A stretch of 64,000 bases of DNA from a virus, in IMG/VR virus record IMGVR_UViG_3300036766_000359, positions 62,001-126,000 of that record. One strand, given 5' to 3'. The translations under genes were made by a program, and so were the position numbers. Shown here piece by piece: positions 26,517-55,861 of the stretch; the stretch's first letter is position 1, and each line of letters begins with the position of its first letter. The notes under the pieces were generated by a model. It worked only from the letters and a program-made list of their open reading frames with translations. It was not told the origin of the DNA and did no database searches.

Positions 26517-29372
26517 CTACGAACATCCTGTCGTCGTACCACAAGATGAACATAGATAACACGAACCATTGCGTTGAGTCATGTTACCACATCGAGTGCA
26601 AGGCGGACCACCAAGATTCTTACGTGCTGGTTTAATCGGGATAGCGGAAGAAGGTGAGGGAATAATTGAACGAAAGACATCAGAATCAGGATCTTTGGAA
26701 ATACTTTCATTAATGTCTTCATGAGAATCATCAACGGTTCGTGTTAAGCCAGAGTACTCACCACCGTAATAATGGACATCGAGAACCTTGAACATGTAAT
26801 CATACAAACTCTTGGCAAACCGAACGTTCTTGTTTGTCGTTATGCCGGAAGGTTCAAATCGAGTATCGATGAAACTAATTATCAATTTTGGAAGCGGAAT
26901 TCCATACTGAATGGCAATAGAACAAAGTTGAGTAAAACCATCAATAAGACCAGAAACGGTGCTTCCTGGTTTACCGAGTTTAAGAAAGATCTCACCAGGA
27001 CGACCATCGGGATACTCACTAACTATGAGATATCCTTTATAACCATCAATTTCAAATTTATGACGCCAACTTTTAACATCTGACGGCATTTTCTCACGAT
27101 AGACGACAGGTACTTCTCGGATTACTTCTTGGATCCTAACTTCAGCCTCTTTCAAAGCTGCTTGTATTACAGGATCTTTAGCTTCCTTCGTAACGAGAGG
27201 CTGAGACGCCTTACACTTGTCACGATATAAGGCAATGCACTTTAATCCGAGACGCCATGATTCTTCATAAATTTTGGCGATCTCGTCTGAAGTGACGCCT
27301 TCAGGAAGATTAACTGTCTTACTCATTGCACATGTGATGAGAGGCTGTATTGCCGCCATCATCTTAATATGTGCCATTGGCGATAAATAACGTCCGGAGT
27401 CACCAGAAGGCATCGCGGTGTCAAAAACTGGAAGGTGTTCATCTTTCAGTCCAGGAGCACCATCAATCGTATCATGAGATTCAACGTACTTACATATCTC
27501 ATCAACTTCATCTTTTGAATAACCGAGATTAACGAGTGCCTCGCGAACTCCAAAGTTCACGAGCTTCATCACGCCGCCACCGACGAGAGACTTATATGAA
27601 ACAAGAGAGAAAGCCGGTTCAATGCCGGTCGTGTTCATACCCATCAAGAACGAGATTGTCCCAAGTGGCGCTTGAAGGGTAGCTTGTGAAACATTATACC
27701 CATACTTCTCACCAAGAGATATAGATTCACGCCAAATATCAGCAGACAAAGATGCTATATCATCACTGATTGGATCTTTTGAAAGATGCCAACGTTCAGT
27801 GATCTTCGTGTCTGCTTCCTGATGCATTCGCATGACACGAAGCATATCATCACGGTTCTTTTCATATTCTGAAAAAGTTCCGATTCGAGCTGCCATTTTT
27901 GACGAAGTTAAATATACGACTCCAGTCATGAGTGATGCCATTCGAGCTGCAATGGCACGACCTTCATCTGAATCGTAACCATAACCAAGATTCATTATTA
28001 GGGCACCAAGGTCACCATAGTTAGACCCGATCGGACGAAGTTTGTGTGAGTTAGAAGTTATCTCATCGGTCGGATAAGAAGCCTTCGCTATGATGGCCAT
28101 TTGTGATGTGCTAAAGATCCTGGTAGCCTGAATGAATCTATCAGCAACAAACTTACGACCGTCAAAAAACTTCGTCAAATTAATCGCGCAAAGATTACAA
28201 GCGGTGTTATCAATATGGAGGAATTCAGCGCACGGATTTGAGGCACGAATGCGACCACTCTTTGGTGTAGTGTGCCATTTGTTTATATTATCAGAAAACT
28301 GGATACCTGGGTCACCACATTTCCAAGCAGCGTCGGCAATTTCATGCCAAAGCATGCGAGCATTGTAGTTGTGAACTATCTTCCCGCCCTTACGTTCGCG
28401 GGTTTGCCAGGTCCCATCATCAAGCATGGATTGCATGAATGCATCAGGAACAGAAACTGAGTGATTAGCATTCTGGTACGGAACGATCTTATACGCACCA
28501 TTCGGGTTGTCGTATTCAGATGAATAACCAATCGATACAAGATCGTGAGCTAACTTTTCCGCCCAAGATTTGCATGAAATAAAACCAGGGCGACCATCAC
28601 GAGTTTCAAGAATGTCAGGATGGTCCATATCCATCACGACCATCTTGGCTGCATTTCTTGTAGCTCCACCAGATTTCATGGAACCGGCATAAGCGTTGTT
28701 ACCTTGCATCCAAGACATCGGGCCGGAAGTGTACGAACCTGCAGAAATTTTTTCATAAGAAGACCTGAGGTTTGATAAATTTGCCCCAGACCCTGATCCA
28801 CCACGAAAAATTGCAAGCTCAGACGCTTGAAAATGCATTATATCGTCAAGAGAGTCTTCAATGCCGGATATGAAACATGCGGAAGCAGTTTGCTCTCGCC
28901 CATCAATTCCGAGATTAAACCAAACAGGAGAATTGAAAGCTCCGTACTGATGCAATAACGCGTAAATGAGCTCTTCTTCAAAAACCTGTTTGTCTTGAAC
29001 AGTATTGAAAAATTTTTGATCAGAAGCCCAGTCACGAATCGTAGAACAAACGCGAGTGAATATCTGTTTTACAGAATTCTCACGTACACCACCAACGACA
29101 CGAAAATACTTATCTGCGACAACATTAACATTATTTTGGGTCCACCAAGCAGGGACCTCGATATCTTTTTGTTCAAAAATTATTTCGCCTTTACCGCTTC
29201 GAATGCAGGCATCAACAATTTTCCATTCAATTTGATCGAATGGATGAATACCTTCAGAGGTAAAAACACGAGGCCAATGTCCGGCTTCACGTGAAACAAT
29301 ATCTTTGCTTGACAACAAAGTCTTGTTAATACTAACAACCTGCGCGTCAGAAGTTACACTAGCGTTCGACAT
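26517..29372 (-). CDS. nrdJ: Ribonucleotide reductase class II, adenosylcobalamin-dependent
   Basis: 951 residues, the length of NrdJ. Visible motifs include SACFISGIEDSLDDIM, SNPCAEFLHIDNTACNLCAI, LGTISFLMGMNTTGIEPAFS, and a C-terminal four-Cys zinc ribbon plus redox cysteines (CTRCGNM, CYLCSSCGTTTGC). It reduces ribonucleotides to deoxyribonucleotides using a B12 cofactor, needing no oxygen and no separate small subunit. No NrdA/B genes are seen. Stop of the HolA-like gene is 10 bases upstream of its ATG. Confidence 0.93.
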   Translation of the reverse strand: MSNASVTSDAQVVSINKTLLSSKDIVSREAGHWPRVFTSEGIHPFDQIEWKIVDACIRSGKGEIIFEQKDIEVPAWWTQNNVNVVADKYFRVVGGVRENSVKQIFTRVCSTIRDWASDQKFFNTVQDKQVFEEELIYALLHQYGAFNSPVWFNLGIDGREQTASACFISGIEDSLDDIMHFQASELAIFRGGSGSGANLSNLRSSYEKISAGSYTSGPMSWMQGNNAYAGSMKSGGATRNAAKMVVMDMDHPDILETRDGRPGFISCKSWAEKLAHDLVSIGYSSEYDNPNGAYKIVPYQNANHSVSVPDAFMQSMLDDGTWQTRERKGGKIVHNYNARMLWHEIADAAWKCGDPGIQFSDNINKWHTTPKSGRIRASNPCAEFLHIDNTACNLCAINLTKFFDGRKFVADRFIQATRIFSTSQMAIIAKASYPTDEITSNSHKLRPIGSNYGDLGALIMNLGYGYDSDEGRAIAARMASLMTGVVYLTSSKMAARIGTFSEYEKNRDDMLRVMRMHQEADTKITERWHLSKDPISDDIASLSADIWRESISLGEKYGYNVSQATLQAPLGTISFLMGMNTTGIEPAFSLVSYKSLVGGGVMKLVNFGVREALVNLGYSKDEVDEICKYVESHDTIDGAPGLKDEHLPVFDTAMPSGDSGRYLSPMAHIKMMAAIQPLITCAMSKTVNLPEGVTSDEIAKIYEESWRLGLKCIALYRDKCKASQPLVTKEAKDPVIQAALKEAEVRIQEVIREVPVVYREKMPSDVKSWRHKFEIDGYKGYLIVSEYPDGRPGEIFLKLGKPGSTVSGLIDGFTQLCSIAIQYGIPLPKLIISFIDTRFEPSGITTNKNVRFAKSLYDYMFKVLDVHYYGGEYSGLTRTVDDSHEDINESISKDPDSDVFRSIIPSPSSAIPIKPARKNLGGPPCTRCGNMTQRNGSCYLCSSCGTTTGCS

Positions 29373-35897: not shown

Positions 35898-36629
35898 ATG
35901 AAACCAAGAAAAACGAAAAAAGCTCCCACCACTCCAAGTGACGATGAATTCAAAGAAGCTGTAGATAAATGCGTCAAAAGAATTGCTGGACCGAAAGAAG
36001 CTGAGTACCTACAAGTATGGCTTTTAGAAGTTGTTAAAAATAATGCGATTCCGGTAAGTCTTCTAGAATTCATACCAATGCCAGCAGCAGAAGTTGGAAA
36101 AACCAGATTTGATCAAATCTACGATGCCGCTATGTCATTAGTATTCCCAGGGTATTCTCAATCAACCTCAGAAAAACTTTTAGGTCCTGCACCAAAGAAA
36201 AATATGAAGATATGGAGGATAATACTACCTGAAAAATTCAAGATAACGCACGTACTTATCCGTGCGATTAGTTTTCAACAGGCATTTGCTCTCGGGTGCG
36301 ACTACGCGTGTCGAATGTCTTTGCGTTTATACGGGAAAATTCCTGTTGATATGACTATTAGGGTCATATTCATGACTGAAAGATCTCTCAGAAGATATCT
36401 TAACCTCAGGTGGGCAAATCGAACATCACGACGAAGAAAACTAAAACTCGAGGGGAGAGAAATTTCCCACCGACAGTTAAATGGTGTCCGTTTAGTCGCG
36501 CTAGGATCCCCAAAAAGTCATTTATATAGTGTAGCTCGATATTGTGAGAGGAAAGATTTAGATAGGGTTTTGAAAGGAAAAGGTATTTCCAGAGAATCAC
36601 CCGTAGAAGCCGAGTCAGGCAAAAAGTAA
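35898..36629 (+). CDS. Unknown basic protein, first gene of the rightward run
   Basis: 243 residues, Lys/Arg-rich, especially at the N-terminus (MKPRKTKKAP) and in ANRTSRRRKLKLEGREISHR. Helical middle section. Not recognised. Basicity suggests nucleic-acid binding. It precedes the PurZ gene by 43 bases. Confidence 0.55.
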   Translation: MKPRKTKKAPTTPSDDEFKEAVDKCVKRIAGPKEAEYLQVWLLEVVKNNAIPVSLLEFIPMPAAEVGKTRFDQIYDAAMSLVFPGYSQSTSEKLLGPAPKKNMKIWRIILPEKFKITHVLIRAISFQQAFALGCDYACRMSLRLYGKIPVDMTIRVIFMTERSLRRYLNLRWANRTSRRRKLKLEGREISHRQLNGVRLVALGSPKSHLYSVARYCERKDLDRVLKGKGISRESPVEAESGKK

Positions 36630-36672: not shown

Positions 36673-39135
36673 GTGCAGGAAGGGAAGTTGAATATACTAT
36701 TGGACGCATTCTGGGGTTCATCCGGAAAAGGAAAAACATCGTCTTTCCTTGCTGATAAATTTGGTGTTACACGAGTCTCTAGCTCAAATTTCCCAAATGC
36801 CGGTCACTGTTGTGGAGAAGATACATACATAACGACAAATCGTGGTCTCGAAAGATTAGGCGATGTTGTTCGTGCATCTAAATCTAACACATCCATAGTG
36901 AATATGGATGGTTCCTTTGAGTCCGTTTCACATTTTGTGGCAGATGGTATTCGGAAGGTTAACACAATACTATTAAAAAATGGTATTTCCATTGATTGCA
37001 CTGACGTACACCGGTTTTTAGTTTGGAATTCGGAAAAATCTGATGTTGAATGGGTTCGATCTATAGATCTTGATCCTGAAACTCACAGTTTCCTATTTCC
37101 AAAATCTGTAGCCTTCAATGGCGGTAGCCTCTTACCAACTGAGTGGACTTCTGCCGATAAACCAAACAAAACTAAAATTGGATTGCCTTTTTCAGAAGAG
37201 ATGTTTGCTTCTTATCTAGGTCTTCTCGTCGGTGACGGGTACTACGCTCGGAAAACGAATGTGAGTATTGCGTTCCATACAAGCCAAATTGATGTACTCA
37301 ATAAAATTCGGGCCATGTATTCGGAAATGGGCATAACAAATCAAAGTGTTGTTCAAGTAGGTGATAAAGAATGCTTTGTGCTCGACACATCCCAGTGTTC
37401 TGGTTTGATGGAATTGTTTGAACTCGTTAACCTCAAACTTGCGATAAAATCAGAAAAGCAAACACCGAAAAAAATTTTAACTTCAAACGTCAAAATCATG
37501 GGTGCATATCTTAGTGGTCTTTTTGACTCGGACGGATCCGTTAAGTCAGATAGAGTAACATTAAGCAACTGTTCCGAAAGTGTTGTTCGTGATGCACAAG
37601 CCATGCTTCATGTACTCGGCATATCAGGGTTTATTACATTTTATGACGATGATCGTGATGATACACGAATGCGTCAGTGGTGTTTGTCTATCAGTGGGTC
37701 AAGAAATCTTAGTATTTTTCAAGATAAAGTGGGGATGTTGTCCGAGATAAAACAACAAAAACTTCGTGGACTGGTTCAATCAATAAATCACGTTGGACAA
37801 ATCATAAATATCAACTCATCCGTTCGAGTTGAATTACGTAAACGCGGGTTTAAATCCGATTCAGGAAATAAAGGCGTTCGAGAGTCAACAATAGAAAAGC
37901 TTGCAGAATCCGGGTATTCAGGACCGGTTGTTGAATCACTTCGTAAATACCATATTATTCAGATTAAATCGATCGAATTTGAATCTAAAGAAATTGAAGT
38001 ATTTGACCTAACGGTTCCTGGCACACACAGCTATCTCGCTAATGGCTGCGTAGCTCATAATACGGCTACATTTAAGGACGGCACCAAGTTCATAGCGAAA
38101 GCAATTCCAACAGCCGCCATTCTCAAGAAAGTTAAAGGCGTTGGGATGCAGTGTTGGATAACTCCAGGTTCAGGTTTTGCTTGGGCACAGCTTATTAAAG
38201 AATGGGATGAATCTGGGAAACCAGAAATCAATATTCACTCGCGTGCATCAATTGTAACGACAGAGCATAAAGAAAGAGAATCTCAGGGAAACGAGTCAAC
38301 AAAACATATTGCGAGCACGATGCAAGGCTCAGCGGCTGCTATGGTAGACAAAGTCTTACGTAAGGCTGACTGTCAACTCGCAGAAACCACTGAATTGCAT
38401 AAGGTCATTGAGTCATTACGAAATAATGACAAATTGATGAACGAATTTTTCACTAATGATATAACGCAAGAGTTTCTTGAAAAAGTGCATGTAGTTGATG
38501 CTTGGGATTTTAGAAAACTAACTCATCAAGCGTTACATAATGGACATCCGTGGCTCCATGAGGGTTCACAAGGATACGCTTTGTCTATTGATCATGGGTC
38601 CCACTTTCCTTTTTGCACAAGTCGAAACGCTTCGATACAATCTGCGATGGACCATCTAGCCGTACCGCCAAAATTGGTCGGTGACGTTTATTTGAATCTT
38701 CGTACTATGCCGATTCGTGTAGGAAACGTCGTTGAGGACGGAGTTCAAAAGGGATACTCAGGCGATTTTTATCCAGACTGTCATGAAATGACATGGGAAC
38801 AAGTGGCACGAGAAGCAGGAATGCCGGAAGAAGAAGCAAAAAAGCTATCGGAAAGAGAACGAACAACGGTTACTAAAAGAGTTCGTAGAGTGTGTACTTT
38901 TTCGTTTAGTGGATTGAAAGATGCTGTTGCTACAAATGGAGCAACAAAACTCATTGTGAATTTCATTCAGTATATAAACTGGCAAGATGCGGGGCTCATG
39001 GGAGAACAAGACGCTTTCTTGAAGCTATCCAAAAAAAGCCGATCATTTATAGACCAGGTAGAAGAAGTTGCTGGAGTTCCTGTGGTACTTATTGGAACTG
39101 GTGCTTTACATGAGGAAATGATATCGAGAATGTGA
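36673..39135 (+). CDS. purZ: PurZ-like (2-amino)adenylosuccinate synthetase containing an intein
   Basis: GTG start with a strong GGAGGTGA Shine-Dalgarno. Exteins are residues 1-45 and 464-820, giving a 402-residue mature enzyme of the PurA superfamily. The P-loop reads WGSSGKGK (14-21); PurA has WGDEGKGK with catalytic Asp, and phage PurZ has Ser there. NFPNAGH|T, STMQGSAAAMVDKVLR and EGSQGYALSIDHGSHF plus CTSRN also fit PurZ better than PurA. Known PurZ joins dGMP and aspartate to make the precursor of 2-aminoadenine (Z), which replaces adenine in some phage DNA. Substrate here is inferred from the Ser and the TSRN motif. Confidence 0.85.
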   Translation: MQEGKLNILLDAFWGSSGKGKTSSFLADKFGVTRVSSSNFPNAGHCCGEDTYITTNRGLERLGDVVRASKSNTSIVNMDGSFESVSHFVADGIRKVNTILLKNGISIDCTDVHRFLVWNSEKSDVEWVRSIDLDPETHSFLFPKSVAFNGGSLLPTEWTSADKPNKTKIGLPFSEEMFASYLGLLVGDGYYARKTNVSIAFHTSQIDVLNKIRAMYSEMGITNQSVVQVGDKECFVLDTSQCSGLMELFELVNLKLAIKSEKQTPKKILTSNVKIMGAYLSGLFDSDGSVKSDRVTLSNCSESVVRDAQAMLHVLGISGFITFYDDDRDDTRMRQWCLSISGSRNLSIFQDKVGMLSEIKQQKLRGLVQSINHVGQIININSSVRVELRKRGFKSDSGNKGVRESTIEKLAESGYSGPVVESLRKYHIIQIKSIEFESKEIEVFDLTVPGTHSYLANGCVAHNTATFKDGTKFIAKAIPTAAILKKVKGVGMQCWITPGSGFAWAQLIKEWDESGKPEINIHSRASIVTTEHKERESQGNESTKHIASTMQGSAAAMVDKVLRKADCQLAETTELHKVIESLRNNDKLMNEFFTNDITQEFLEKVHVVDAWDFRKLTHQALHNGHPWLHEGSQGYALSIDHGSHFPFCTSRNASIQSAMDHLAVPPKLVGDVYLNLRTMPIRVGNVVEDGVQKGYSGDFYPDCHEMTWEQVAREAGMPEEEAKKLSERERTTVTKRVRRVCTFSFSGLKDAVATNGATKLIVNFIQYINWQDAGLMGEQDAFLKLSKKSRSFIDQVEEVAGVPVVLIGTGALHEEMISRM
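36808..38061 (+). mobile_element. LAGLIDADG intein in the PurZ-like gene
   Basis: 418 residues beginning at Cys46 (CCGEDTYI, splicing block A) and ending ANGCVAHN before Thr+1. Block B contains CTDVHRFLV. Two LAGLIDADG helices are recognisable (YLGLLVGDGYY and YLSGLFDSDGSV) with both acidic residues, so the homing endonuclease looks intact. Block F is EVFDLTVPGTHSYLANG. It interrupts the conserved NAGHT substrate loop; splicing restores NAGHT. C46 rather than C47 is chosen because it gives the standard C-x3-D-T spacing and restores NAGHT. Confidence 0.9.
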
Positions 39136-40036: not shown

Positions 40037-41371
40037 ATGACTGAACCGAAAGTTTTTTGTCTAGTCGATGAAAATGGTCGACTACTCCCACCGGCAGTTC
40101 AAGCCACGGTTTTAGCTAAATATTCACGGTCCCCGGAATCGGCCCATGAGATTATCAAAAATCTATCTGAAGAAGATGCCGATAAATTCCAGGGAAAATA
40201 TGTTATTGAGTATAACCACTCAAGCGTAGCCGAATTAGCGACAGTCCCAGTATGCTTCGAAGGTGTATCAATCATTGCGTCAAAATTTCTCGAATCCTTT
40301 CAAAGAATGGGGTACTCTGAAAAAAGTACCAGGTATCAAGTTTTCAACCGACATTCATTCATAACTCCTCCGGGAGCTCCGCCAACAATGAAAGAATTTG
40401 CGGCTAGGTTTTATGATGCGTATGAAAAATTATATCCCCGGGTACTCAAACGATGCGCCGAGCTTATGGGGAAAGACCCCAATAAGGAAGACAGAACTGT
40501 AAAAGCTAGAGCATTTGATAACATCCGATATTTGTTACCTTCTGGAACCGGGACTAATCTGGCAGCAGTTGGGTTTTTACGTGATTTTCGTTATATGATT
40601 CAAGAATCAAGAGGACACTCAAATCCAGAAATTAGGTCAATAGGTGACTCCACTCATGCAGCAATATCAGAAATATGTCCCGTGTTGGTTCGAAGCTCGG
40701 AAGCAGATTCTTTTGAACCACGAGTTAAATCGCTCGGGAATTTATCACCAAAATTTAAAATCGATAACCCGTCGTGGTACGTAGATTTATATAAACCTCA
40801 GACACTTGGAAATCCGAATACCATTCAGGAAACTTTTTGCGCTACCATAGCTGATCAATACGGAATGAGTTGGTCTGCTTTCAACAAACTCATGGAAGAA
40901 CGGGGAAAAAGAGCAGTACCGAAAATTTTCCGTTCTGTAAAAATTTCTCTAGATGTCATGATGGACTATGGTGCTTATCGTGATTTGCAGAGACATAGAC
41001 GATGTGAACAGTATTCTGAACCGTTGACTTCAAATTACGGGTACCTAGTCCCGGATGATATTGCTGGAACCGAAATGGAACCAGAGTACAGAACTGCGAT
41101 GGAACAAATTCATTTATATGACGACAATCGCGTGTCGTGTGATTCGGATTTGATGCAATATCTGATACCTCTAGGATACCTACACAGGTCCGTTTTCGAT
41201 ATGGACCTTCAAGAATTATATTATATCTCGGAGTTACGGACACAACCTCAGGGTCATATCTCGTATAGAAGAGTTGCTTACGAGATGGCAAAGGTTGGGT
41301 CGGCTCTATACCCGAATTTGATGAGTTGGTGTAGAGCTACGAATCCTGAAAGTATAGGGGTTCACACTTAA
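40037..41371 (+). CDS. thyX: Flavin-dependent thymidylate synthase, tandem-domain ThyX
   Basis: 444 residues, about twice the usual ThyX. The first half has AKYSRSPESAHEII, EYNHSSVAELATVPVCFEG and SEKSTRY but lacks the RHR triad (ESFQRMGYSEKS in its place). The second half has the signature LQRHRRCEQYSEPLTSNYGY. This suggests an internally duplicated enzyme with the RHR motif retained once. ThyX makes dTMP from dUMP with FAD and methylene-THF. With RNR and dNMP kinase it supplies dNTPs for the phage. Confidence 0.88.
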   Translation: MTEPKVFCLVDENGRLLPPAVQATVLAKYSRSPESAHEIIKNLSEEDADKFQGKYVIEYNHSSVAELATVPVCFEGVSIIASKFLESFQRMGYSEKSTRYQVFNRHSFITPPGAPPTMKEFAARFYDAYEKLYPRVLKRCAELMGKDPNKEDRTVKARAFDNIRYLLPSGTGTNLAAVGFLRDFRYMIQESRGHSNPEIRSIGDSTHAAISEICPVLVRSSEADSFEPRVKSLGNLSPKFKIDNPSWYVDLYKPQTLGNPNTIQETFCATIADQYGMSWSAFNKLMEERGKRAVPKIFRSVKISLDVMMDYGAYRDLQRHRRCEQYSEPLTSNYGYLVPDDIAGTEMEPEYRTAMEQIHLYDDNRVSCDSDLMQYLIPLGYLHRSVFDMDLQELYYISELRTQPQGHISYRRVAYEMAKVGSALYPNLMSWCRATNPESIGVHT

Positions 41372-42997: not shown

Positions 42998-43225
42998 ATG
43001 AACTGGTCTAAACTATTAGAATATTCCGTGCTACTAGAATATTTCATATTATCCATTCCTGGAGTGGCTTTGGTAGCCGCCGGAGCTGCGTTGGGCGGGT
43101 TGAATGCCGCTTTCATTTTTCTGGTTCCGCTATTTGGTATTTATCTTTTAGGTCGAAATCATGGAGCAGAGGCATTGATGAAAGCTATAAAGGCTTCGAT
43201 GAAGGAACCAGTGGACCCGACCTGA
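42998..43225 (+). CDS. Small membrane protein with two transmembrane segments
   Basis: 75 residues; hydrophobic stretches at ~14-36 (FILSIPGVALVAAGAALGG) and ~37-52 (FIFLVPLFGIYLLG), with a charged C-terminal tail. A holin-like topology, but nothing specific identifies it as one. The nearest lysis-like genes are several kb away. Good GGGGAG ribosome-binding site. Confidence 0.6.
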   Translation: MNWSKLLEYSVLLEYFILSIPGVALVAAGAALGGLNAAFIFLVPLFGIYLLGRNHGAEALMKAIKASMKEPVDPT

Positions 43226-43262
43226 TTTATTTTATCATGAACTTGTTGAAAAATCGCAAAGT

Positions 43263-44147
43263 TTAGTGCGAATGTAACGTCTGAATCAGCCACTGGATTA
43301 GTGCAGCGATGGCAGCAATCGCTCCAACCGGGATGGTAATTTTCCTTGTGAGATTCTTCCCAGATTTTTCAGCCTGATTTTGAATTGCCAGAATTGCTCT
43401 GTTAGTAGTTTCCTTCATATGGTTTTCAAAAATCTGTATACGTTTATCATGAATGGTATCCGTCGTAATCAACATGAGAATCTCTGTCGTGTGATTTGAA
43501 AGTTCTCGTATTATTTCATTTTTAAACATATTAATCATTTGAACATTTTCAAGAGCCAGATCGGCAGCCCTGTTTGCCGCCGACAAACAAGATCTCATCT
43601 GAAGTTTTATGTTATCAATTGAGTCACGTGTTTCGGTAATTTCACCCCCGAGTCGGACTACGTGTTCCTCAGTCCAAAATCGAAGATCTGCCATCTTATG
43701 GAACAGATCGTTAAAATTATTTGTTGCTTCCATGGTAGCAGACATGGAGGTATACTCAGGACCCGATTCCGTAGTCGTATTCATATGCCCCATTTTAAAC
43801 CAGTAAAACGGATGATTAGTATCAAACAACTCCGAATACCACCAAATGAGTTTACCGTCCGAATTTTTCCACGGCCATATGAATAATTTGTGAATTTTTC
43901 CTTTTGTCTGGTCGGATATCATATCCCTTACCCAGTCATGGAACTTTTCCGGAATGACGCTAAATATAGTCATTCCTTGTAGTTGTTCGAGTTTGAACCC
44001 ATATGTGTTCAATACGAATTCATTCGCCCACACAATTTCCCCAGAGATGAGATTTACTTCTATAAATCCACGGTCGTTAAGGGACCTTCCATAGTCTCGG
44101 ATAACTTCGATCTCGTTGCTGGTTATTTGCATATGTAAAGACTTCAA
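43263..44147 (-). CDS. PAS-domain protein with C-terminal membrane anchor
   Basis: 294 residues. Residues ~20-130 read as a PAS domain (GFIEVNLISGEIVWANEFVL, YGFKLEQLQGMTIFSVIP, and WPWKNSDGKLIWWYSELFD). The middle is helical with coiled-coil character and the C-terminus carries one transmembrane segment (VGAIAAIAALIQWLIQTL). No kinase, HTH or cyclase output domain. PAS domains sense small ligands, redox or light; a tail-anchored PAS in a phage is unusual. Confidence 0.75.
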   Translation of the reverse strand: MKSLHMQITSNEIEVIRDYGRSLNDRGFIEVNLISGEIVWANEFVLNTYGFKLEQLQGMTIFSVIPEKFHDWVRDMISDQTKGKIHKLFIWPWKNSDGKLIWWYSELFDTNHPFYWFKMGHMNTTTESGPEYTSMSATMEATNNFNDLFHKMADLRFWTEEHVVRLGGEITETRDSIDNIKLQMRSCLSAANRAADLALENVQMINMFKNEIIRELSNHTTEILMLITTDTIHDKRIQIFENHMKETTNRAILAIQNQAEKSGKNLTRKITIPVGAIAAIAALIQWLIQTLHSH

Positions 44148-44204
44148 ACCTTGTTACAATGAAGTTGGACAAGGATTTCATTACAACCCGTGGTAGGGTA
44201 TGTA

Positions 44205-44549
44205 ATGGTAAACTTTTTACAAGTAGAATGCTCAAAATGCAAAGTGGCAAAATCCTGCCCACATTTCGGGTCTAGTCCACTGCGCATACCTGGGTATATG
44301 CCAGAGTATTGCAAAATCATAGGTGGATATGGGAGGAAACCAGTAGACCCGGCGATTCTCTCGCCGGAAAGTCTTAGTATTTCGACTCCAGGTTCGTGTC
44401 TTACGATCGCTTATATCCCGGTCGTCGACAAAGAGACAGGGCAAATCATAATGAAACTTACAAAAATTTTCGCCCCTCCTGTTCTACATGAGAGGGAAAA
44501 AATTCCGTGGAATATTGAAGAAATGTACCCTAAACCCCACAAGATTTAG
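44205..44549 (+). CDS. Small Cys-motif protein
   Basis: ATG at 44205 is preferred to an upstream GTG. A CSKCKVAKSCPHFG cluster near the N-terminus could bind metal. The remainder is beta-rich, ending in Pro/Lys. Convergent with the next gene and overlapping it by 20 bases. Function unknown. Confidence 0.5.
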   Translation: MVNFLQVECSKCKVAKSCPHFGSSPLRIPGYMPEYCKIIGGYGRKPVDPAILSPESLSISTPGSCLTIAYIPVVDKETGQIIMKLTKIFAPPVLHEREKIPWNIEEMYPKPHKI

Positions 44550-44790
44550 AAGTGCGGGACCTACGTTTCATTCGTCGAATTAGTTTATTAGTTTCCAGTA
44601 TTATTTCTTGATCAGAAATACCACATCGTATTGCTTCTTTAACGGCACCGTTAACGTCACGTTCTACTCTCTTACGAGTAGTTTCTCGACTCCAATTTCT
44701 TATCCATTCTGCAAATCTTATACGATTTTCAGGAGTTACGTTAATCACTGACCGCAACTTTCTGAACCGTCTTTTTGGTTCGAAATCCAT
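44530..44790 (-). CDS. Unknown basic protein, overlapping frame
   Basis: From Met at 44790, a basic, helical ~86-residue protein (RIRFAEWIRNWSRETTRKR, EIILETNKLIRRMKRRSRTS). An in-frame ATG farther upstream (44877) exists but would overlap the zinc gene by 137 bases. Possibly expressed as a frameshift extension of that gene. Confidence 0.45.
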   Translation of the reverse strand: MDFEPKRRFRKLRSVINVTPENRIRFAEWIRNWSRETTRKRVERDVNGAVKEAIRCGISDQEIILETNKLIRRMKRRSRTSKSCGV

Positions 44791-45022
44791 GCCAACCGGA
44801 TTTTTTAGAATTTCGAATGGCGCACCTTTGACAGTTAGAAGGTGGTATGCTACGCCATCTAGATAAGAGTATATCAAATTCTTTGTTACACTGACAACGC
44901 ACTCGAGCCCAACGTTCAGTATATGATTTTCCCGTTTTCGCGACTAAACGAACACGTTCCATAACATTTATCAGTTCGAGATTGCCAGAACTTTTACGTA
45001 AAGAATTCGGGTCAAATGTCAT
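44741..45022 (-). CDS. Small phage zinc-binding protein
   Basis: 93 residues with VRLVAKTGKSYTERWARVRC and QCNKEF, then CQRC, in a layout I know from phage 'C.C.C' zinc proteins that often precede a DNA-binding domain. The end of the frame overlaps the basic gene downstream, raising the chance of a -1/+1 frameshift fusion. Confidence 0.55.
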   Translation of the reverse strand: MTFDPNSLRKSSGNLELINVMERVRLVAKTGKSYTERWARVRCQCNKEFDILLSRWRSIPPSNCQRCAIRNSKKSGWHGFRTKKTVQKVAVSD

Positions 45023-45027
45023 AATGC

Positions 45028-45264
45028 CTACTTACGACTAGTACGAATCGCTGATTCATACATCTTGGGTAAATTTTTTACAACATTGTCCATCAGATCA
45101 TGAACGCTCATTTTTGAACCAGTAGCTCGAAATGCAATTAAAGTTTCGGCTGCAAGGATTACTTCTAGTGTGTCGTACTCTTTACTTTGATCAATTAGAA
45201 CGTGAGCCAAACTATTAGCTTTTTTCATGAAAGCTCGACGTTCTTTTGCTGTCATACTAGCCAT
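45028..45264 (-). CDS. Unknown small helical protein
   Basis: 78 residues, all helical in appearance (MTAKERRAFMKKANSLAHVL). Five bases from the zinc gene and cotranscribed. No recognised domain. Confidence 0.5.
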   Translation of the reverse strand: MASMTAKERRAFMKKANSLAHVLIDQSKEYDTLEVILAAETLIAFRATGSKMSVHDLMDNVVKNLPKMYESAIRTSRK

Positions 45265-45273
45265 TAAATTTCA

Positions 45274-46221
45274 TCAAGGGTGGTATTTATCAGAAGTATC
45301 CGACAAAACGTATTCATCCTTCCATTGTTTCCCATTCCAATTAGGGTCAGAGCATATTTTAACTATATCATCCATAGTTCGATATAAGTCATAGAGCGTT
45401 GAGTCATTTTCTATTACGAAGTCATACGCAGAGTCCTTGATCCTAGTTTGTTCGGTTTCTGACCGATGGTTAAACGGAGGTTTCGCAACAATAGGACGTT
45501 TAATCCGTATGATTACAGGAACCAGGTTTTCATCAGCGGCTTCACGTGCAAGTTTATGTTCATGAATATGACGAAAATCTGAAAAACACGTAATGAATTG
45601 AGAAATGGGGTCTACGGATTGTACAGGAAACAGTCCTTTTTCTTTCGAATACGCATAACCCGAGGCAATGAGGCGGTGATCTTGTATCCCTTTTCGAATC
45701 CAAGTGTCTGAGTACAAAGTATTCATTAATTCCATGTACTGCTGAAGAGACTCACGCGGAGATAACCAAAAATCAGGGTCACCTTCACGAACAAAATACC
45801 TAACAAGCCCATCTTTAGTCAGTTTATTCGGTTTTTGTGTTAAATAAGATTGAGAGTTATTTATGTCATCGTATGAATCATACAAATACCAAAGGTCTTT
45901 TTTTGCCCCTCCGATATACTGATTCCCGTTTTTGTCAACAATATCAAAAACATCATCAGGAATATTTTCTGGATGAACATTCCATCTTTGAAGATTAACA
46001 AGTTTAGTAATTTGCTTCGGGTATCTAACATCACCAGCGTTTCGAAATTCTGAAGGCCCCCACAATTGATTAGTCGTAAATCCGTAAGCGTCTTGCATAT
46101 GGCGCTTACCCGGATCAGCTAGACCAGTACGAGTTGCATTATGAAATGTAACAAGCCTGTTAGCGCATTCGTCTTTGCCTGCACTACTAAATCCCGATAT
46201 GCAAATCATTAAATGAGTCAT
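45274..46221 (-). CDS. Deoxynucleoside monophosphate kinase (T4 gp1-like)
   Basis: Start at the second Met, behind a GAGGAAG Shine-Dalgarno. P-loop GFSSAGKDECANRL, then GLADPGKRHMQDAYGFTTNQ and LWG, which fit phage dNMP kinases. The C-terminal part has RIKRPIVAKPPF and a closing DFVIEN lid-like segment. It would phosphorylate dNMPs to dNDPs, extending the RNR/ThyX pathway. If the genome contains Z, this enzyme might accept dZMP; no evidence here. Confidence 0.72.
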   Translation of the reverse strand: MTHLMICISGFSSAGKDECANRLVTFHNATRTGLADPGKRHMQDAYGFTTNQLWGPSEFRNAGDVRYPKQITKLVNLQRWNVHPENIPDDVFDIVDKNGNQYIGGAKKDLWYLYDSYDDINNSQSYLTQKPNKLTKDGLVRYFVREGDPDFWLSPRESLQQYMELMNTLYSDTWIRKGIQDHRLIASGYAYSKEKGLFPVQSVDPISQFITCFSDFRHIHEHKLAREAADENLVPVIIRIKRPIVAKPPFNHRSETEQTRIKDSAYDFVIENDSTLYDLYRTMDDIVKICSDPNWNGKQWKDEYVLSDTSDKYHP

Positions 46222-47209
46222 TTCTTCCTCGTGTGTTCGTGTGTACAATGCAATAACTGTAAGTTCCTTTAGCCATATTACAGTTATGGCACAATACCTG
46301 AAATTTTGATTTTCTACGAAATTTCTCGATAAATGTGGATTTTTTGATAGTTATCCATTTATATAATGATGGACCACTTCTCGGTCCTTCATTATCAGTT
46401 TTATATGATATTTTATGATCAATGCATAGTCTATTTAATGCAGTTTCTCCACAACCGTTACAAGAACATTTGACAACCCCGTTACATACAGTTTCTAAAG
46501 CAGCCTTTTTCAGATTTTGTGATTCTATACACAGGTGTTTTAGGTAATCTTCTTTATTACAACAAATACATAAAACTTCATATTTTGACTTATCTGAATT
46601 TAACAAAATATCACGGTATAACCCGCGTGGATTGAAGTGTATACGATGTTCTTTTCCGTCATTGTTAATATGCTGAACTGTTAAAAACTTAATTTCGGTT
46701 ATATTACAACGAACACATTTTACTCCTCCAAGAGCATTGAAAACAGCCACTCGTTCAGAAACATACCTATTATTATCACATTCTTTACATGCGGAATTCA
46801 AACCGTCACTTTTCCCATTATATCGAAAAAATTCATTTGATTTCTTAATCTTTTTGCAATGCCAACATTTTTTAACGTAAGGAACAACTACATTTTGTCT
46901 TATCTTATTTTTATTGAGCAATGAATTTTTCTGGGTATTATCACAGCTTTTGCAACACCAGTTTAAACCATCTTTCCCAGAAAGATTTTTAGCAAATTGA
47001 TCACTTGACTTTGTTAGTCCGCATTTTCCACATGAGTTTTGACCTGGTAGCTCGTTTTCTTTATTTAACTTTTTACGATTTGTTCTAGAAATTAAATTGG
47101 AAGTTTTAGTACACTCTTTACAAAATCGTTGAAGACCGTCTTTTCTCGATGAACTTTTATAAAATAAATCAAAAGATTTTGTTTTCCTACATCTGCTACA
47201 TATTTTCAT
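46187..47209 (-). CDS. HNH homing endonuclease with three zinc-ribbon repeats
   Basis: Start taken at MKICSRCRK. Three ~45-residue repeats of the pattern CSRCRKTKSFDLFYKSSSRK then CKECTK are followed by two HNH-type regions (CVRCNITEIKFLTVQHINND; CSCNGCGETALNRLCIDHKI then CHNCNMAKGT). The gene is strikingly AT-rich compared with its neighbours, and its end overlaps the start of the dNMP kinase gene, consistent with a mobile insertion. Confidence 0.8.
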   Translation of the reverse strand: MKICSRCRKTKSFDLFYKSSSRKDGLQRFCKECTKTSNLISRTNRKKLNKENELPGQNSCGKCGLTKSSDQFAKNLSGKDGLNWCCKSCDNTQKNSLLNKNKIRQNVVVPYVKKCWHCKKIKKSNEFFRYNGKSDGLNSACKECDNNRYVSERVAVFNALGGVKCVRCNITEIKFLTVQHINNDGKEHRIHFNPRGLYRDILLNSDKSKYEVLCICCNKEDYLKHLCIESQNLKKAALETVCNGVVKCSCNGCGETALNRLCIDHKISYKTDNEGPRSGPSLYKWITIKKSTFIEKFRRKSKFQVLCHNCNMAKGTYSYCIVHTNTRGRNDSFNDLHIGI

Positions 47210-50599: not shown

Positions 50600-51366
50600 T
50601 TCGTCCCCGAATCATGTGGTGCGTCAATGACCCAAAGGTCACTAGCCAGCGCACTGGCTACCGCAGACTGTTTAATTCGATATCGACCGTGTTCACCCCA
50701 CCCAGGCCCCCACGAGTTTTGACCCCAGAAAAATTCATCTTTGTAATGACCGTACAAAAACATAGCATGGCCACCTATAATAACCTTGGACTCATCAAGA
50801 AGTCCACCTTTGTAATCAAACCATTTGGCATCAATTTCTAAGCCGTACACTATAGGGTGGTTTGCGGCGAGAGCGCGTTTGATGTCTAGAATTCGTGCTG
50901 CGCCGACTGAATTGATGCGATAATAGCCCTTCAAGCTACGTTGGTCATAGGCTGCTCTGAAAGTAGCCCAGTCGGGTCGTTCGTTGACTTTAGCTTCTAC
51001 AAACGGCCACACGGTGGCCGGGGCGACTCCCAAGACTTTAGCAGCCTTAAAGACGTCACGAATATATGTTCCTTCGTCTACGGTTTCGGTGTTAGTGACT
51101 GCCCGACCAATGTCATAAAGCCAAAGTTGAGAAGGGATTCGACGGTCCTTGATGCCTTGAGCTCCCCAAGAGGTGTATATTGCCCCACTGGACGATTGTC
51201 CAGTACATGAGCTAGTCCCCACTTGATTATATGGAGCCGGTAAATGGGCTTCCATATTAGTTTGTTCAGGGATAGTCGTGACTGCCTGAACAGCCCCCAT
51301 CATGGAGAGTGGCTTGTCATTCGGGTCGTGAAGATCTTTCTTCCAACCTGTCCCGGGGTTAGACAT
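50596..51366 (-). CDS. Papain-like (C1A) cysteine protease
   Basis: 256 residues with the full C1A triad order: NQVGTSSCTGQSSSG (Gln oxyanion and catalytic Cys), VIIGGHAMFLYGHYKD (catalytic His) and FFWGQNSWGPGWGEHGRYRI (catalytic Asn). No signal or long propeptide is obvious. A C1 papain in a phage is unusual; roles could include virion maturation or attack on host proteins. Neighbouring lipoprotein may be linked. Confidence 0.88.
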   Translation of the reverse strand: MSNPGTGWKKDLHDPNDKPLSMMGAVQAVTTIPEQTNMEAHLPAPYNQVGTSSCTGQSSSGAIYTSWGAQGIKDRRIPSQLWLYDIGRAVTNTETVDEGTYIRDVFKAAKVLGVAPATVWPFVEAKVNERPDWATFRAAYDQRSLKGYYRINSVGAARILDIKRALAANHPIVYGLEIDAKWFDYKGGLLDESKVIIGGHAMFLYGHYKDEFFWGQNSWGPGWGEHGRYRIKQSAVASALASDLWVIDAPHDSGTK

Positions 51367-51432
51367 TAGACAACCATGGTTTGGTTATATGGTTCATATT
51401 CATGAACTGGTAATAAAAGTTCTGTTCGTAGT
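51367..51432. promoter_or_regulatory. Divergent intergenic region with palindromes
   Basis: Between divergent genes; contains AACCATGGTT (51372-51381, a perfect palindrome) and GTTCAT-ATTC-ATGAAC (51392-51407). Candidate operator or divergent promoter. Confidence 0.4.
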
Positions 51433-51957
51433 ATGAAAGAGAAACCAAAAATTGATTTTCATTTTGGGGAAGTGATTGAAATCCCGATACCAGGACCTGC
51501 AGATTCAGATCCTCCGGTATGGCCTAAAAGCCGTGGAGAGAAACTTAAGCCGTGGATAAATGCCATATCCATAATTGCAGCACTTGCAACTTCCATAACA
51601 GCAGCACTTAAACCAAATGACCCTATAAACAAAGCTTCATACGAGGAACTCAAGAAAGCAGTTGAGCAACTCAATAAAAATGATACTAGAAACCATGAAG
51701 ACATCATGGCCATACATAGTTATTTAGAATCGTATGCATGGAACGCTGCAGCCGCGTCTGCCGCAGCCGCACAGCCACCGCCAGTTCCACCGCGTGGACG
51801 CTTGAGAAATAAAATAGTTAAAAAGAAGTCATCCAAGTCTGAGAAGTTAGAAACTCCGCAAACTCCGGTTCTTCCTGAAATTCATGGAAAACCTCCGGTA
51901 CAAAATCTACCGGAGTTTGATGAACTAATTGAAGACCCGGATGAACTACTTAAATGA
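51433..51957 (+). CDS. Small membrane protein with acidic tail
   Basis: 174 residues; one candidate transmembrane or hydrophobic segment (INAISIIAALATSITAAL) in the first third, then a helical portion and Ala/Pro and Lys-rich low-complexity, ending acidic (DELIEDPDELLK). A spanin- or holin-like job would be a guess. Confidence 0.5.
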   Translation: MKEKPKIDFHFGEVIEIPIPGPADSDPPVWPKSRGEKLKPWINAISIIAALATSITAALKPNDPINKASYEELKKAVEQLNKNDTRNHEDIMAIHSYLESYAWNAAAASAAAAQPPPVPPRGRLRNKIVKKKSSKSEKLETPQTPVLPEIHGKPPVQNLPEFDELIEDPDELLK

Positions 51958-54540
51958 CTCATCTGGGATGGTGACAGATATGAAATTAGACGACGGGTCA
52001 TAAATCATATCAGAAGATTGATCACCCAAGTAATTTACTTGAACTACATACTGTCCAGTTTCTCTGGATAATTCATCAGATTGAAAATAACCGGCTTGAT
52101 CAACATCGTATGGACCGAAAGTCGTTCCGTCCAGTGACATGACTACTTTCCCAAGTGGGGCTGGACGATTTAGATAATCTACGACATGACCATCAATACG
52201 AAATTGTTCAGCGGATATCGGGACAGAGTCTAATAACACTGAAGTCATACTGTGAAATAGTGAAACTTCCAAAGTATATGGATCAGACGTACTTTGTTCA
52301 AAACACGAGTCACCTTCATATGTTGCGATGAACTGATATGTTTGAATGTTAAGCGATTCGATGGTTAAAATCGCATGACTCGATAGCGCATCATTCACGA
52401 GATTTGATTTACCTAACGGAGTCCAGTTCGGGCCGGGTAAACATATGAAAAAATCAACCAAACCGGTTGGAGACCCGGTGAGAGAGTTAGATGATACTGT
52501 CACAACAAGTTGAACTGGTGACTTGTTATCTACTGGGTTAATGGATGATAAAACCGCAGTGGTGACAGCTCTACGAACAACATACTGAATTTCCGAAGAT
52601 ATTATTTCTTCAGTATCAGGTTCTGAATAACTACAGTATAACGTTTGGTTTCCTGGTGGTAAACCATAAGTTCGAAGTGTCGCGATTCCACTAGAAGAAA
52701 ACACTGATGAACTACCAAGTAACGTTGGCTCTGATGAATTATAAGTATCAACTTGATTAGGACCAATATCAGGCCGTGTTAATCTTGGAGCAGATGATCT
52801 TTGAATACACGGTTCATCTCTTCCTTGAACCGTATTAGAAACGCGCATGTCAACGGCTTTGTTTGATTCTTTACCGGAAAATCTAATTAGACCACGAGTG
52901 TCTGTCCCATCATCCATACACGCGTCTGACTTGACAACTGCCCAAACTGATGTCCCGTCCCAGACTAAACCTGACAAGTCTTCAGCATAGACAGTTGGAA
53001 TTTGGACTATTTCACTTGAAAAATCTGTCCGGTATACGGAGCCATACATTGATCCAGGGTTGGCTGATCCGCATGTCCATAACGTACGTCCATCCCAAAC
53101 AGCACCAAGATATCCTTGTCGTGAAGAACTACCGGGTATTATTTGATATTTGATGCTAGATGGGTTTCCCAAAGACTCAATTCGAGCTATAAAATTATGC
53201 AAATCTAACGAGTCATCTTCATATATGCCGGTAAAAGCTATGGACTTAGAAATTCCATACGAACCGGGGATAACTGCGATGGAAAAAGCAGAGACGGGAG
53301 AAAAGTTTGGTTCTTTAGTGAGTAGTATTTTTTCTATCGTGAAATATTCAGGATCGATTTTCAGGATAAGTGCGGGAGCAGATGAAGAATCATTAGTTCT
53401 AACACTTTTACATGTAGCCCATAAAAATCGACCGTCGCATGAAATGTCATATAAATCAGGCATCCATGATGAATATTGATCGTTTTTTATTACGATCGAC
53501 ATTATCGACTTTGCAAGAACAGATTTTGGAAACCCGGAGATCATGTCCGATAGAACGAAGCTATAGATATGATCTGGTTCAGATGAATCAGACGCCGGGA
53601 CGATACAAAACGCCATTCCAGCACCGTCAAATGTTATGCGTCGAGCTTGATTGGGAAGACTCGATCTACCAACGACTCGACGAGTCTCCGGATCAATCAA
53701 AATTAAAGATTTTCCAACCCAACAAACAAGTCGAGTAAAAGGGTCGTACGCGATATGAAGTGCCCCGGTCTCACCGAATGGACTCAGATCAATAGACTGG
53801 AACTGTGTGGAAGTACCGAGAAAAGAAAAACTCGATAACTTAGGAGTCTTAGAATCCGATACCCACATCGAATTCCCATCCCATGCAGCAGAAGTCGGTT
53901 CAATGAAGCGTAAATTTTCTGGTGACTGAACAGGGTCTGGTTTAGATAGACGACTATAAAACGAGACAGGACCTACTGGTGGATTGATACTACCCTGAAG
54001 GGAAACTAATTGTCCGTAACTAGCTGAATCTGGAGAGATAGAAAGACGTAAATAACCAGGTTCAGCGGCCCGAGCAGCAAATAGTTGTTCTGGCGGTTCA
54101 ACAGCTTCCAGGATTTCTTGAAAGAAACGAACAGCCGGTGGAAGAATCGCCGGGGGGCTAGACCAAATTGAAGAAAACTGACCACTATACTGAAGTCCTA
54201 CCCCTCCAAATTTCCATGGAAGAACACCAAGAGAATTAAACTGCTTGGCTTTGTCGAAGGCTCCTCGTTCAGATTCAGACTCAATTGATTGCGAAGCACC
54301 TATGCTAATATGCGATGTAAGGCTAACTTGAAATTGATACGGGCTGGATTTAACCGCCCAAATGTTGGATAGTGGGCCAGTATAGGCACCGATATGCTGG
54401 CCCGCATATTCCCATCGAACTTGCGAACGTGAATGACTAGATCTGGCTTGTTTTTCGGCGTCTTCACGAGAGACAGCGGAAACAGACAAAGAGCCAGAAA
54501 CGTCAACCTCGGACAATAGAGATACGTTGAAAAGAGTCAT
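51946..54540 (-). CDS. Large putative virion adhesin with beta-propeller and Ig-like domains
   Basis: 864 residues. N-terminal ~190 residues include two similar halves of a small repeat (REDAEKQARSSHSRSQVRWE / ERGAFDKAKQFNSLGVLPWK). The central ~210-540 has propeller-like blades (TSAAWDGNSMWVSDSKTPKL, LGAVWDGRTLWTCGSANPGS, GLVWDGTSVWAVVKSD). The C-terminus has Ig-like domains (SPVQLVVTVSSNSLTGSPTG, VVDYLNRPAPLGKV). Typical of receptor-binding or fibre proteins. Host receptor unknown. Confidence 0.65.
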   Translation of the reverse strand: MTLFNVSLLSEVDVSGSLSVSAVSREDAEKQARSSHSRSQVRWEYAGQHIGAYTGPLSNIWAVKSSPYQFQVSLTSHISIGASQSIESESERGAFDKAKQFNSLGVLPWKFGGVGLQYSGQFSSIWSSPPAILPPAVRFFQEILEAVEPPEQLFAARAAEPGYLRLSISPDSASYGQLVSLQGSINPPVGPVSFYSRLSKPDPVQSPENLRFIEPTSAAWDGNSMWVSDSKTPKLSSFSFLGTSTQFQSIDLSPFGETGALHIAYDPFTRLVCWVGKSLILIDPETRRVVGRSSLPNQARRITFDGAGMAFCIVPASDSSEPDHIYSFVLSDMISGFPKSVLAKSIMSIVIKNDQYSSWMPDLYDISCDGRFLWATCKSVRTNDSSSAPALILKIDPEYFTIEKILLTKEPNFSPVSAFSIAVIPGSYGISKSIAFTGIYEDDSLDLHNFIARIESLGNPSSIKYQIIPGSSSRQGYLGAVWDGRTLWTCGSANPGSMYGSVYRTDFSSEIVQIPTVYAEDLSGLVWDGTSVWAVVKSDACMDDGTDTRGLIRFSGKESNKAVDMRVSNTVQGRDEPCIQRSSAPRLTRPDIGPNQVDTYNSSEPTLLGSSSVFSSSGIATLRTYGLPPGNQTLYCSYSEPDTEEIISSEIQYVVRRAVTTAVLSSINPVDNKSPVQLVVTVSSNSLTGSPTGLVDFFICLPGPNWTPLGKSNLVNDALSSHAILTIESLNIQTYQFIATYEGDSCFEQSTSDPYTLEVSLFHSMTSVLLDSVPISAEQFRIDGHVVDYLNRPAPLGKVVMSLDGTTFGPYDVDQAGYFQSDELSRETGQYVVQVNYLGDQSSDMIYDPSSNFISVTIPDESFK

Positions 54541-54603
54541 CTAGCCCACCTGATCACAAGGGACTTATTGACCTTACCTTTTCAGTTAGTCATTTATTTA
54601 GGT

Positions 54604-54626
54604 GGTCTTCGACTTTTTTGAAGACC
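54604..54626. repeat. Inverted repeat, 7-bp stem
   Basis: GGTCTTC / GAAGACC around a 9-base T-rich loop, in the 190-bp gap before the virion gene. No U-tract on the minus strand. Confidence 0.4.
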
Positions 54627-54676
54627 CAAACAAATAGTTGGATAGATCTCTCAAGCGCCAGGTCAAGAATTTTCTT

Positions 54677-54723
54677 CCGCATACTGACATGATTTAACAA
54701 AATTATATTATATCAGTATGCGG
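54677..54723 (-). terminator. Hairpin downstream of DUF gene
   Basis: Perfect 11-bp stem (CCGCATACTGA / TCAGTATGCGG) with a 25-base AT-rich loop, 7 bases after the stop of the 54731 gene. Loop length and lack of a U-tract make it a weak terminator; a protein-binding site is also possible. Confidence 0.4.
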
Positions 54724-54730
54724 ACGACCA

Positions 54731-55861
54731 CTACCATTTTCCGTCACGTACTACAGGTGCGGTTAAATGAGGGTATGTGATCACCGTTTTCTCAATTGTA
54801 GGTGAATCGTTTTGTTGACCAACGAAACCGTGAATCGCATCTTTCTGACCTACGGTTTTCACGCCTTGAAAGTCAACAGGAGCTTTCAAAGTATTAGCGG
54901 AAAAATCGTTTAGTTTGAACCAGTTACCGGCATATTCTTGAGCTGATATAGGCATTGGAGGGCATTTCTCACCCGTAATTAGTTCATACATCTCGGCGTT
55001 GACTATGTGGACAAACAATCGACCTGACGCCTCTTGGTCCCAGGTACCGATGCCATATGGGTCAGGATAAATTTTCTGTGCCATTTGTCCACCGGCAGCT
55101 AGTCCCATTGAAGACGATGCATTCAAAAATGCACTATTTACTCCTGTGTGCGATGACAAACCTCGCATCGCTGTGCAACCAATCTTTGTGCCACCATAAT
55201 TGACTCCACTCGTATACGTATAACCAAACGAACCAGAAGAACCAGTTACACCATCAGCACCATCAGAAACTATTACACCATCAGAAACTTGGTTAAATGA
55301 ACCACCCAAAGTTTTGGATTCTGAGCCTCTTGACATGAGCGGCATAACACCTGATTTTGCCGGGATGACCAATAACTGTAATCCGCCGTATTCCTCTTTA
55401 CCGGTAACTTGGCCTTCCACCGTATAACCCATACCCATGGGCATGGCCACGAATTGTTTAATAACACCATTACCGGAGTTGAAACCATCGAGCCAGTTTT
55501 GCGGGTGAGGTGCCACCATATAGTCTTCGACGCCCGCAACAAGCTCGGGAGTCCATGGTTTACCATTAACCGCGTTAACCTTGCCAGTCGCTGTTTTAAC
55601 CGCCGAAACAGCCCCGGAAAAGCCAAGCCACATAGCTTCGCGTTGATGTAGCGGAATGAACACGCCACCTTGCTCACGCCACGAAGCTGGAACTTTATCC
55701 CGATAATCATCCACCAGCTTCACTGGAAGATGCCCAAGACCAGGCGGTAGCTGATGGGTTCGACCATCTTCGGGGAGTCTGATCGTGCGGTTAAATACCA
55801 CACTGAAGGTTGAACCGAGATGTTCAAAAATGACCGAATTATTGCTTTGTGTGATTTTCAT
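54731..55861 (-). CDS. Conserved protein of unknown function, bacterial-type
   Basis: 376 residues from MKITQSNNSVIF, 4 bases after the RHH gene stop. The central segment AMPMGMGYTVEGQVTGKEEY followed by GGLQLLVIPAK resembles a recurrent bacterial domain of unknown role (MPLGxGYTxEEQxTG... GGLQ). A Gly/Ser-rich stretch (GSSGSFGYTYTSGVNYGG) follows. The last residues VRDGKW match the end of the adjacent RHH protein. Higher GC suggests host origin. Confidence 0.6.
   Translation of the reverse strand: MKITQSNNSVIFEHLGSTFSVVFNRTIRLPEDGRTHQLPPGLGHLPVKLVDDYRDKVPASWREQGGVFIPLHQREAMWLGFSGAVSAVKTATGKVNAVNGKPWTPELVAGVEDYMVAPHPQNWLDGFNSGNGVIKQFVAMPMGMGYTVEGQVTGKEEYGGLQLLVIPAKSGVMPLMSRGSESKTLGGSFNQVSDGVIVSDGADGVTGSSGSFGYTYTSGVNYGGTKIGCTAMRGLSSHTGVNSAFLNASSSMGLAAGGQMAQKIYPDPYGIGTWDQEASGRLFVHIVNAEMYELITGEKCPPMPISAQEYAGNWFKLNDFSANTLKAPVDFQGVKTVGQKDAIHGFVGQQNDSPTIEKTVITYPHLTAPVVRDGKW

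Follow-up and report, generated by a model that had tools for sequence, protein, structure and literature searches.

Does a phage gene that resembles an adenylosuccinate synthetase, with a serine at the position of the catalytic aspartate, encode a PurZ-type enzyme, and would this enzyme serve a genome made with 2-aminoadenine (Z)? The question was raised by an open reading frame in a 64,000-nucleotide stretch of viral DNA (the window), which covers bases 62001–126000 of a 192,972-base IMG/VR virus record (G000). The frame lies on the plus strand at 36673..39135, starts with GTG downstream of a Shine-Dalgarno-like GGAGG and encodes 820 amino acids with a match to PF00709 (E 2e-27). A preliminary description had read it as a single PurZ-like frame with Ser at the PurA Asp position in WGSSGKGK, and with CTSRN after EGSQG. 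We confirmed both residue observations. Ser16 of the window protein aligns with Asp13 of E. coli PurA and Ser23 of S-2L PurZ, and the catalytic Asp is thus not restored; WGSSGKGK is found at 36712–36735, EGSQG at 38560–38574 and CTSRN at 38614–38628. The Ser is invariant in every full-length homologue that we read from viral contigs, so neither chance nor a sequencing error accounts for it. Purifying selection acts on the coding sequence, with a pN/pS of about 0.2 and saturated synonymous sites.

The single-frame reading held for the synthetase and overlooked a 418-amino acid intein (CCGEDT...VAHN) that occupies residues 46–463 (36808..38061, plus strand) at the site NAGH^T. The intein scores 49.8 bits with PF14890 and 36.3 bits with TIGR01443 (intein C-terminus), for which the cut-offs are 35.8 and 15.6 bits. 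The LAGLIDADG homing-endonuclease motifs YLGLLVGDGY and YLSGLFDSDGS were detected at 37213..37539 on the same strand (PF14528 E 3e-15, PF05204 E 2e-7), and PF14890, PF14528 and PF05204 are all above their Pfam cut-offs. The splicing blocks are present, with Cys1 in CCGEDT, TxxH as TDVH, and VAHN^T with Thr at +1. The N-extein of 45 amino acids (36673..36807, plus strand) contains GSSGKGK, with the Ser at the PurA Asp13 position, and NAGH with the catalytic His. The C-extein of 357 amino acids (38062..39132, plus strand) contains EGSQG, CTSRN, the TTVTKR loop and the NFxQ nucleotide site. Without the intein the synthetase is 402 amino acids long and continuous across NAGH^T. As the intein breaks this active-site/substrate motif and adjoins the family's catalytic His (His41 in E. 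coli), the unspliced 820-amino acid precursor should be inactive.

This intein is absent from the PurZ of all relatives read, in which the residue corresponding to +1 is Thr, Ser or Cys and rarely Val. A search with its own sequence returned no relative in the viral collection. It has its architecture and splicing blocks in common with other phage inteins that carry a LAGLIDADG endonuclease, such as those of staphylococcal and bacillar phages in helicase, gyrase and terminase genes. Our searches gave no precedent for its host gene and insertion site. In the open-access literature we found no paper that meaningfully joins an intein with adenylosuccinate synthetase. The record is rich in inteins: outside the window, three more were observed in its head genes, of which the head maturation protease has one and the portal protein two (contig 43009–45759, L004:3009–5759, and 50604–55109, the latter being the portal gene).

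To assign the synthetase, we compared it with the residue list of the S-2L pocket (PMC8342488). The window protein keeps G22, S23, N49, A50, S131, T132, R146 and Q190 of S-2L PurZ, as well as the further contact residues C204, T205, R240, V241, T273–T276, R280, N305, F306 and Q308. Within the dGMP pocket and ATP site there are three small exceptions, with Ala for G130, Phe for Y203 and Ala for P336, in addition to Val for R244. At the same S-2L positions PurA has Asp at 23 and, in most proteins, T-K/M-D at 305/306/308. The window protein therefore has the ATP-type N-F-Q where E. coli PurA has the GTP-type T-K-D.

Database searches led to the same family. The best sequence matches in the PDB were phiVC8 PurZ, at the top, and S-2L PurZ. 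A family profile of ten rows, phiVC8 PurZ among them, matched phiVC8 PurZ with E 6e-114, S-2L PurZ with 1e-62 and Pyrococcus PurA with 9e-53. The NCBIfam model NF038379 (PurZ, phiVC8-like) was the best-scoring model, yet the window protein (164 bits) and its orthologue (193 bits) do not reach its curated threshold of 300 bits. We also modelled the intein-free orthologue from G006 (L018:10001–11209) with AlphaFold (pLDDT 94.7, pTM 0.93), and Foldseek placed phiVC8 and S-2L PurZ first by E-value. The TM-score to the target was 0.84 for PurZ and 0.90 for Pyrococcus PurA; as the archaeal PurA scores as well, structure comparison was dropped as a sole discriminator between the two.

The maximum-likelihood tree of 66 proteins separates them. 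All Ser-type proteins split from PurA with support of 100/98, and clustering of the window protein with PurA, named beforehand in the preliminary description as evidence against PurZ, was not seen. The window clade (99/95) groups with phiVC8 and S-2L PurZ and some other viral sequences (97/89), and PurZ0 falls outside this group (100/100). Since PurZ0 and PurZ are both known to serve Z-DNA (PMC12884076; also PMC8342488), the window clade is bracketed by two Z-making groups. Together with the genes that co-occur with it, the tree, the pocket residues and the profile and structure searches strongly support the window protein as a PurZ-type enzyme of a divergent lineage, in line with the PurZ-like identity first proposed for it.

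These data also bear on the rival explanation that the gene is a phage-adapted PurA which works with PurB to convert IMP to AMP and raises adenine nucleotides, the Ser being a tolerated change. Purine biosynthesis genes do occur in huge phages (PMC7162821). Furthermore, an adenylosuccinate lyase (PurB) is encoded on the same contig at 179173–180510, outside the window; it is close to ordinary bacterial PurB, and its motifs TSSD, SHGMHAEP and GSSAMPHKRNP are intact. However, conservation of Asp13 in PurA reaches 99% (PMC12884076), the Ser is invariant here, and both the ATP-type N-F-Q and the tree position speak against a PurA. In addition, the relative G001, which also has a PurB with intact catalytic motifs, encodes IMP dehydrogenase (guaB) and GMP synthase (guaA) behind its HD and MazG-like genes. 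This is the guanylate branch and not the IMP-to-AMP pair alone; the two enzymes would supply guanylate and were absent from the other records tested. We therefore consider the PurA explanation improbable. In earlier work, the enzymes that convert dSMP to dZTP could not be located on the genomes of Z-phages (PMC8342488), and host enzymes carry out this step (PMC12884076). A PurB is also present in L079, and a lyase-family gene in L111 and in the Flavobacterium phage MaF61.

Alternatively, a Ser-type synthetase might aminate another 6-oxopurine nucleotide for a different product, such as a small molecule, a signal or another DNA base, as the apparently chromosomal homologues of Clostridia next to Nudix genes may do. 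Bacterial genomes also encode Ser-type homologues, either adjacent to a Nudix hydrolase or as a fusion with one, and for this reason the Ser alone is not proof of Z-DNA. Nevertheless, the bacterial homologues lie on another branch together with BpsS-140 (98/94), whereas the window clade occurs in phages and is linked to HD and MazG-like genes, which makes this explanation very unlikely for the window protein. The bacterial genes are of interest in their own right. They carry GSCGKGK, were seen in L149–L176 and L182 (e.g. L163:4536–6068 and L158:5001–6068) in genomes of gut Clostridia and Bacilli and in Mollicutes-like ones, and are apparently chromosomal, with the Nudix hydrolase gene as neighbour or fusion partner. 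Canonical PurA is also present in at least two of these genomes. A cellular PurZ-like/Nudix pair, if it is one, would be a finding of its own.

To place the gene in its phage, we compared gene order between related contigs. From about 190 kb to the end of G006, and continuing slightly around that end, the window record is collinear with this contig; collinearity with G001 (307,777 bases) was observed as well. G006 is a contig of 393,220 bases with a 55-base repeat at its ends and is likely a complete genome. Because the collinear part is the half of G006 from about 190 kb to the end, the window record corresponds to about half of a genome of approximately 390 kb. A major head protein and a portal were recognised in it by PHROG, and a terminase is present in relatives. 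Contigs with a window-clade PurZ reach 436 kb. The phage, which is uncultured, is a member of a new huge-phage clade (about 300–436 kb). A sister lineage, which includes the 618,736-base contig G053, has a head protein 78–80% identical to that of the window lineage.

Several other features of the contig were observed. A CRISPR-like array outside the window (L009:1634–2753, contig 186634–187753) has 16 repeats of 36 bases and spacers of mostly 30–40 bases; no cas gene was recognised, and the spacers had no match among the sequences compared here. On the minus strand at window positions 2499–4529, one protein combines many LRV/HEAT-like repeats with a PcfJ-like stretch, and a similar repeat protein adjoins it at contig 61622–64498. 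Four related small genes outside the window (contig 3362–4306, 25608–26519, 27711–28607 and 57758–58600) have a GIY-YIG-like start (WTIYCH..GRRYIG) and are likely homing genes.

Around the synthetase, the window encodes further functions in nucleotide supply. A class II ribonucleotide reductase for dNDP/dNTP supply is located at 26517..29372 on the minus strand (PF02867 E 3e-107, PF08471 E 3e-19). ThyX, the flavin thymidylate synthase in its long form, follows at 40037..41371 on the plus strand (PF02511 E 9e-30) and is a PurZ neighbour in 15 relatives. Directly upstream of PurZ is a conserved gene of 243 amino acids (35898..36629, plus strand), found near PurZ in 18 relatives, without a Pfam or PHROG match. 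A weak match below the curated cut-off (PF21448 E 8e-5) points to a deoxynucleoside monophosphate kinase-like protein at 45274..46248 on the minus strand, present also in relatives. A 616-amino acid protein at 6474–8324 on the minus strand contains a Mom-family domain (PF25680 E 2e-21), and a Mom-like protein directly adjoins PurZ in five relatives (L077, L079, L080, L092 and L115). We considered it as a second adenine-modification system and set it aside: the relatives show a Mom-like domain on a Vsr-like endonuclease, and the protein looks more like the product of a mobile gene.

Next, we asked whether the known partners of PurZ accompany the gene. The preliminary description had proposed a search for datZ, mazZ and dpoZ in the rest of the genome, and none was found in the strict sense. 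Searching the window contig with phiVC8 DatZ, DpoZ and SSB gave no match, and neither did the profiles PF00476, PF07733, PF12917, PF03819, PF00958 and PF00478; no PolA, DnaE, HD or MazG gene was found on it. We propose that these genes are missing because the contig covers only the half of the genome that corresponds to G006 from about 190 kb to the end. Among the larger relatives, a YfbR-like HD phosphohydrolase was detected in six of the seven window-clade contigs above 300 kb (G001, G006, G017, G018, G023 and G025), while no HD gene was detectable in the clade contigs G050 (315 kb) and G030 (251 kb). In 15 of 16 HD loci a MazG-like gene lies beside the HD gene and often overlaps it. Its product matches PF12643 just below the cut-off (E 7e-6 and 6e-5), with a visible ExxE...ExxD motif. 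PolA was found, about 10 kb away, in both contigs above 300 kb (G001 and G006) among the nine records searched.

Scanning the whole of IMG/VR with the HD profile yielded 15 contigs, seven of which also carry PurZ, and 12 of the 15 come from samples that also contain a window-clade PurZ contig. Of the remaining three, two share 3.5 kb of identical sequence with loci in contigs that bear PurZ. Neither PurZ nor HD was found in the sister lineage, which includes G053 (618,736 bases). Of the evidence collected here, this co-occurrence speaks most strongly for a place of the HD and MazG-like proteins in the PurZ route, where they would have the roles suggested below.

The relatives' proteins do not carry the published DatZ and DpoZ signatures. 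The HD protein keeps the metal ligands and catalytic HD residues, and was rejected as a DatZ on account of W20 to Tyr/Phe, I22 to Ser and Q29 to Glu (G001, G006, G017, G018, G025 and G032). The steric-gate residue is Phe in both DpoZ clades (PMC8065100, PMC8599892). PolA of G001 and G006 was rejected as a DpoZ, as it keeps the steric-gate Tyr where phiVC8 has F459, and it also lacks the phiVC8 DpoZ residues. Thus, with a gate Tyr in PolA and different base-facing residues in the HD protein, it is not certain that polymerisation is Z-selective or that the HD protein is specific for dATP. These features would fit a phage that makes dZMP and has Z only as a minor or conditional base, in a mixed A/Z genome copied by a non-discriminating polymerase, with the HD and MazG-like proteins acting in general pool control. 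The S-2L polymerase, however, does not discriminate either, and S-2L replaces all A through removal of dATP (PMC8065100), so an ordinary-gate PolA does not exclude a Z genome. Moreover, the HD and MazG-like pair tracks PurZ across the collection. On balance, a mixed genome appears unlikely, though a better candidate than the two explanations discussed above.

Comparison with known systems defines what is particular to this lineage. In common with phiVC8 and S-2L PurZ (PDB 6fm1, 7odx), the window protein has the Ser, almost all of the dGMP pocket, the TTVT loop, the N-F-(N/Q) ATP site and the major branch of the tree. It differs in an identity of about 35% or less, its 402 amino acids, a longer insertion after PIRVG and the intein. 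The phages differ as well, with about 300–436 kb instead of 38–45 kb, purZ located away from datZ/mazZ, and a PurB of their own. PurZ0 of Arthrobacter and Gordonia phages (PDB 7vf6) is likewise a Ser-type Z synthetase, but it lies outside the branch that unites the window clade with known PurZ and has a T-M-D nucleotide site; its best-defined partners are DutZ/DmtZ (PMC12884076). Like DatZ and MazZ of S-2L and phiVC8, the relatives have an HD phosphohydrolase (YfbR-like, metal ligands kept) whose gene overlaps that of a MazG-like protein. In contrast to those systems, the pair is far from purZ, and the MazG-like protein was not found with confidence by an S-2L MazZ query. MaF61 (PQ858689), a cultured myovirus of 168 kb, is likewise a large phage that encodes both a Ser-type synthetase and a lyase-family protein; its synthetase is 34% identical to the window protein, with longer insertions and no intein. 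The two genes are annotated as adenosuccinate synthetase (L010:11884–13227) and adenosuccinate lyase (L010:23568–24923). The MaF61 paper makes no reference to Z or PurZ (PMC13269007), and the phage has apparently not been recognised as a possible Z-phage.

Taken together, we consider it probable that the window gene encodes a divergent PurZ (2-amino-adenylosuccinate synthetase), released by splicing, which feeds a 2-aminoadenine genome. From the gene, intein, residues, phylogeny and co-occurrence, which were established directly, we infer splicing, dGMP specificity, the roles of the HD and MazG-like proteins and Z in the virion, along the following route. Protein splicing would join the exteins into the 402-amino acid enzyme. 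The MazG-like or the HD protein would convert dGTP to dGMP and/or lower dATP. The spliced PurZ, judging from its residues and phylogeny, would form dSMP from dGMP, Asp and ATP, and the phage PurB, by its family, would remove fumarate to give dZMP. Phage or host kinases would convert dZMP to dZTP, which PolA would place opposite T while dATP is depleted. The resulting genome would have 2-aminoadenine in place of much or all of its adenine, as a protection against host nucleases.

For the lineage as a whole, the evidence tips towards huge phages of about 300–436 kb with 2-aminoadenine genomes and a mostly self-encoded route, consisting of GuaB and GuaA (in one member), HD, MazG-like protein, PurZ, PurB and an ordinary-gate PolA. 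This route may have been assembled independently of the DatZ/MazZ/DpoZ set, and in one member it would depend on splicing. We found neither PurZ nor Z-DNA reported for huge or jumbo phages in the open-access literature searched. New here are a divergent PurZ lineage in huge phages, a convergent accessory set, an own PurB and, in one member, an intein in the active site. Among the known changes of the DNA alphabet, Z-DNA is the most complete, and the published Z-phages are mostly small. If our interpretation is true, Z genomes of 300–436 kb exist, the Z accessory set was built anew from other components, and such phages can do without a polymerase that bears the known Z-selective signature. The lineage would then provide new enzymes for the production of Z-DNA, along with an intein that would control the first step through its splicing.
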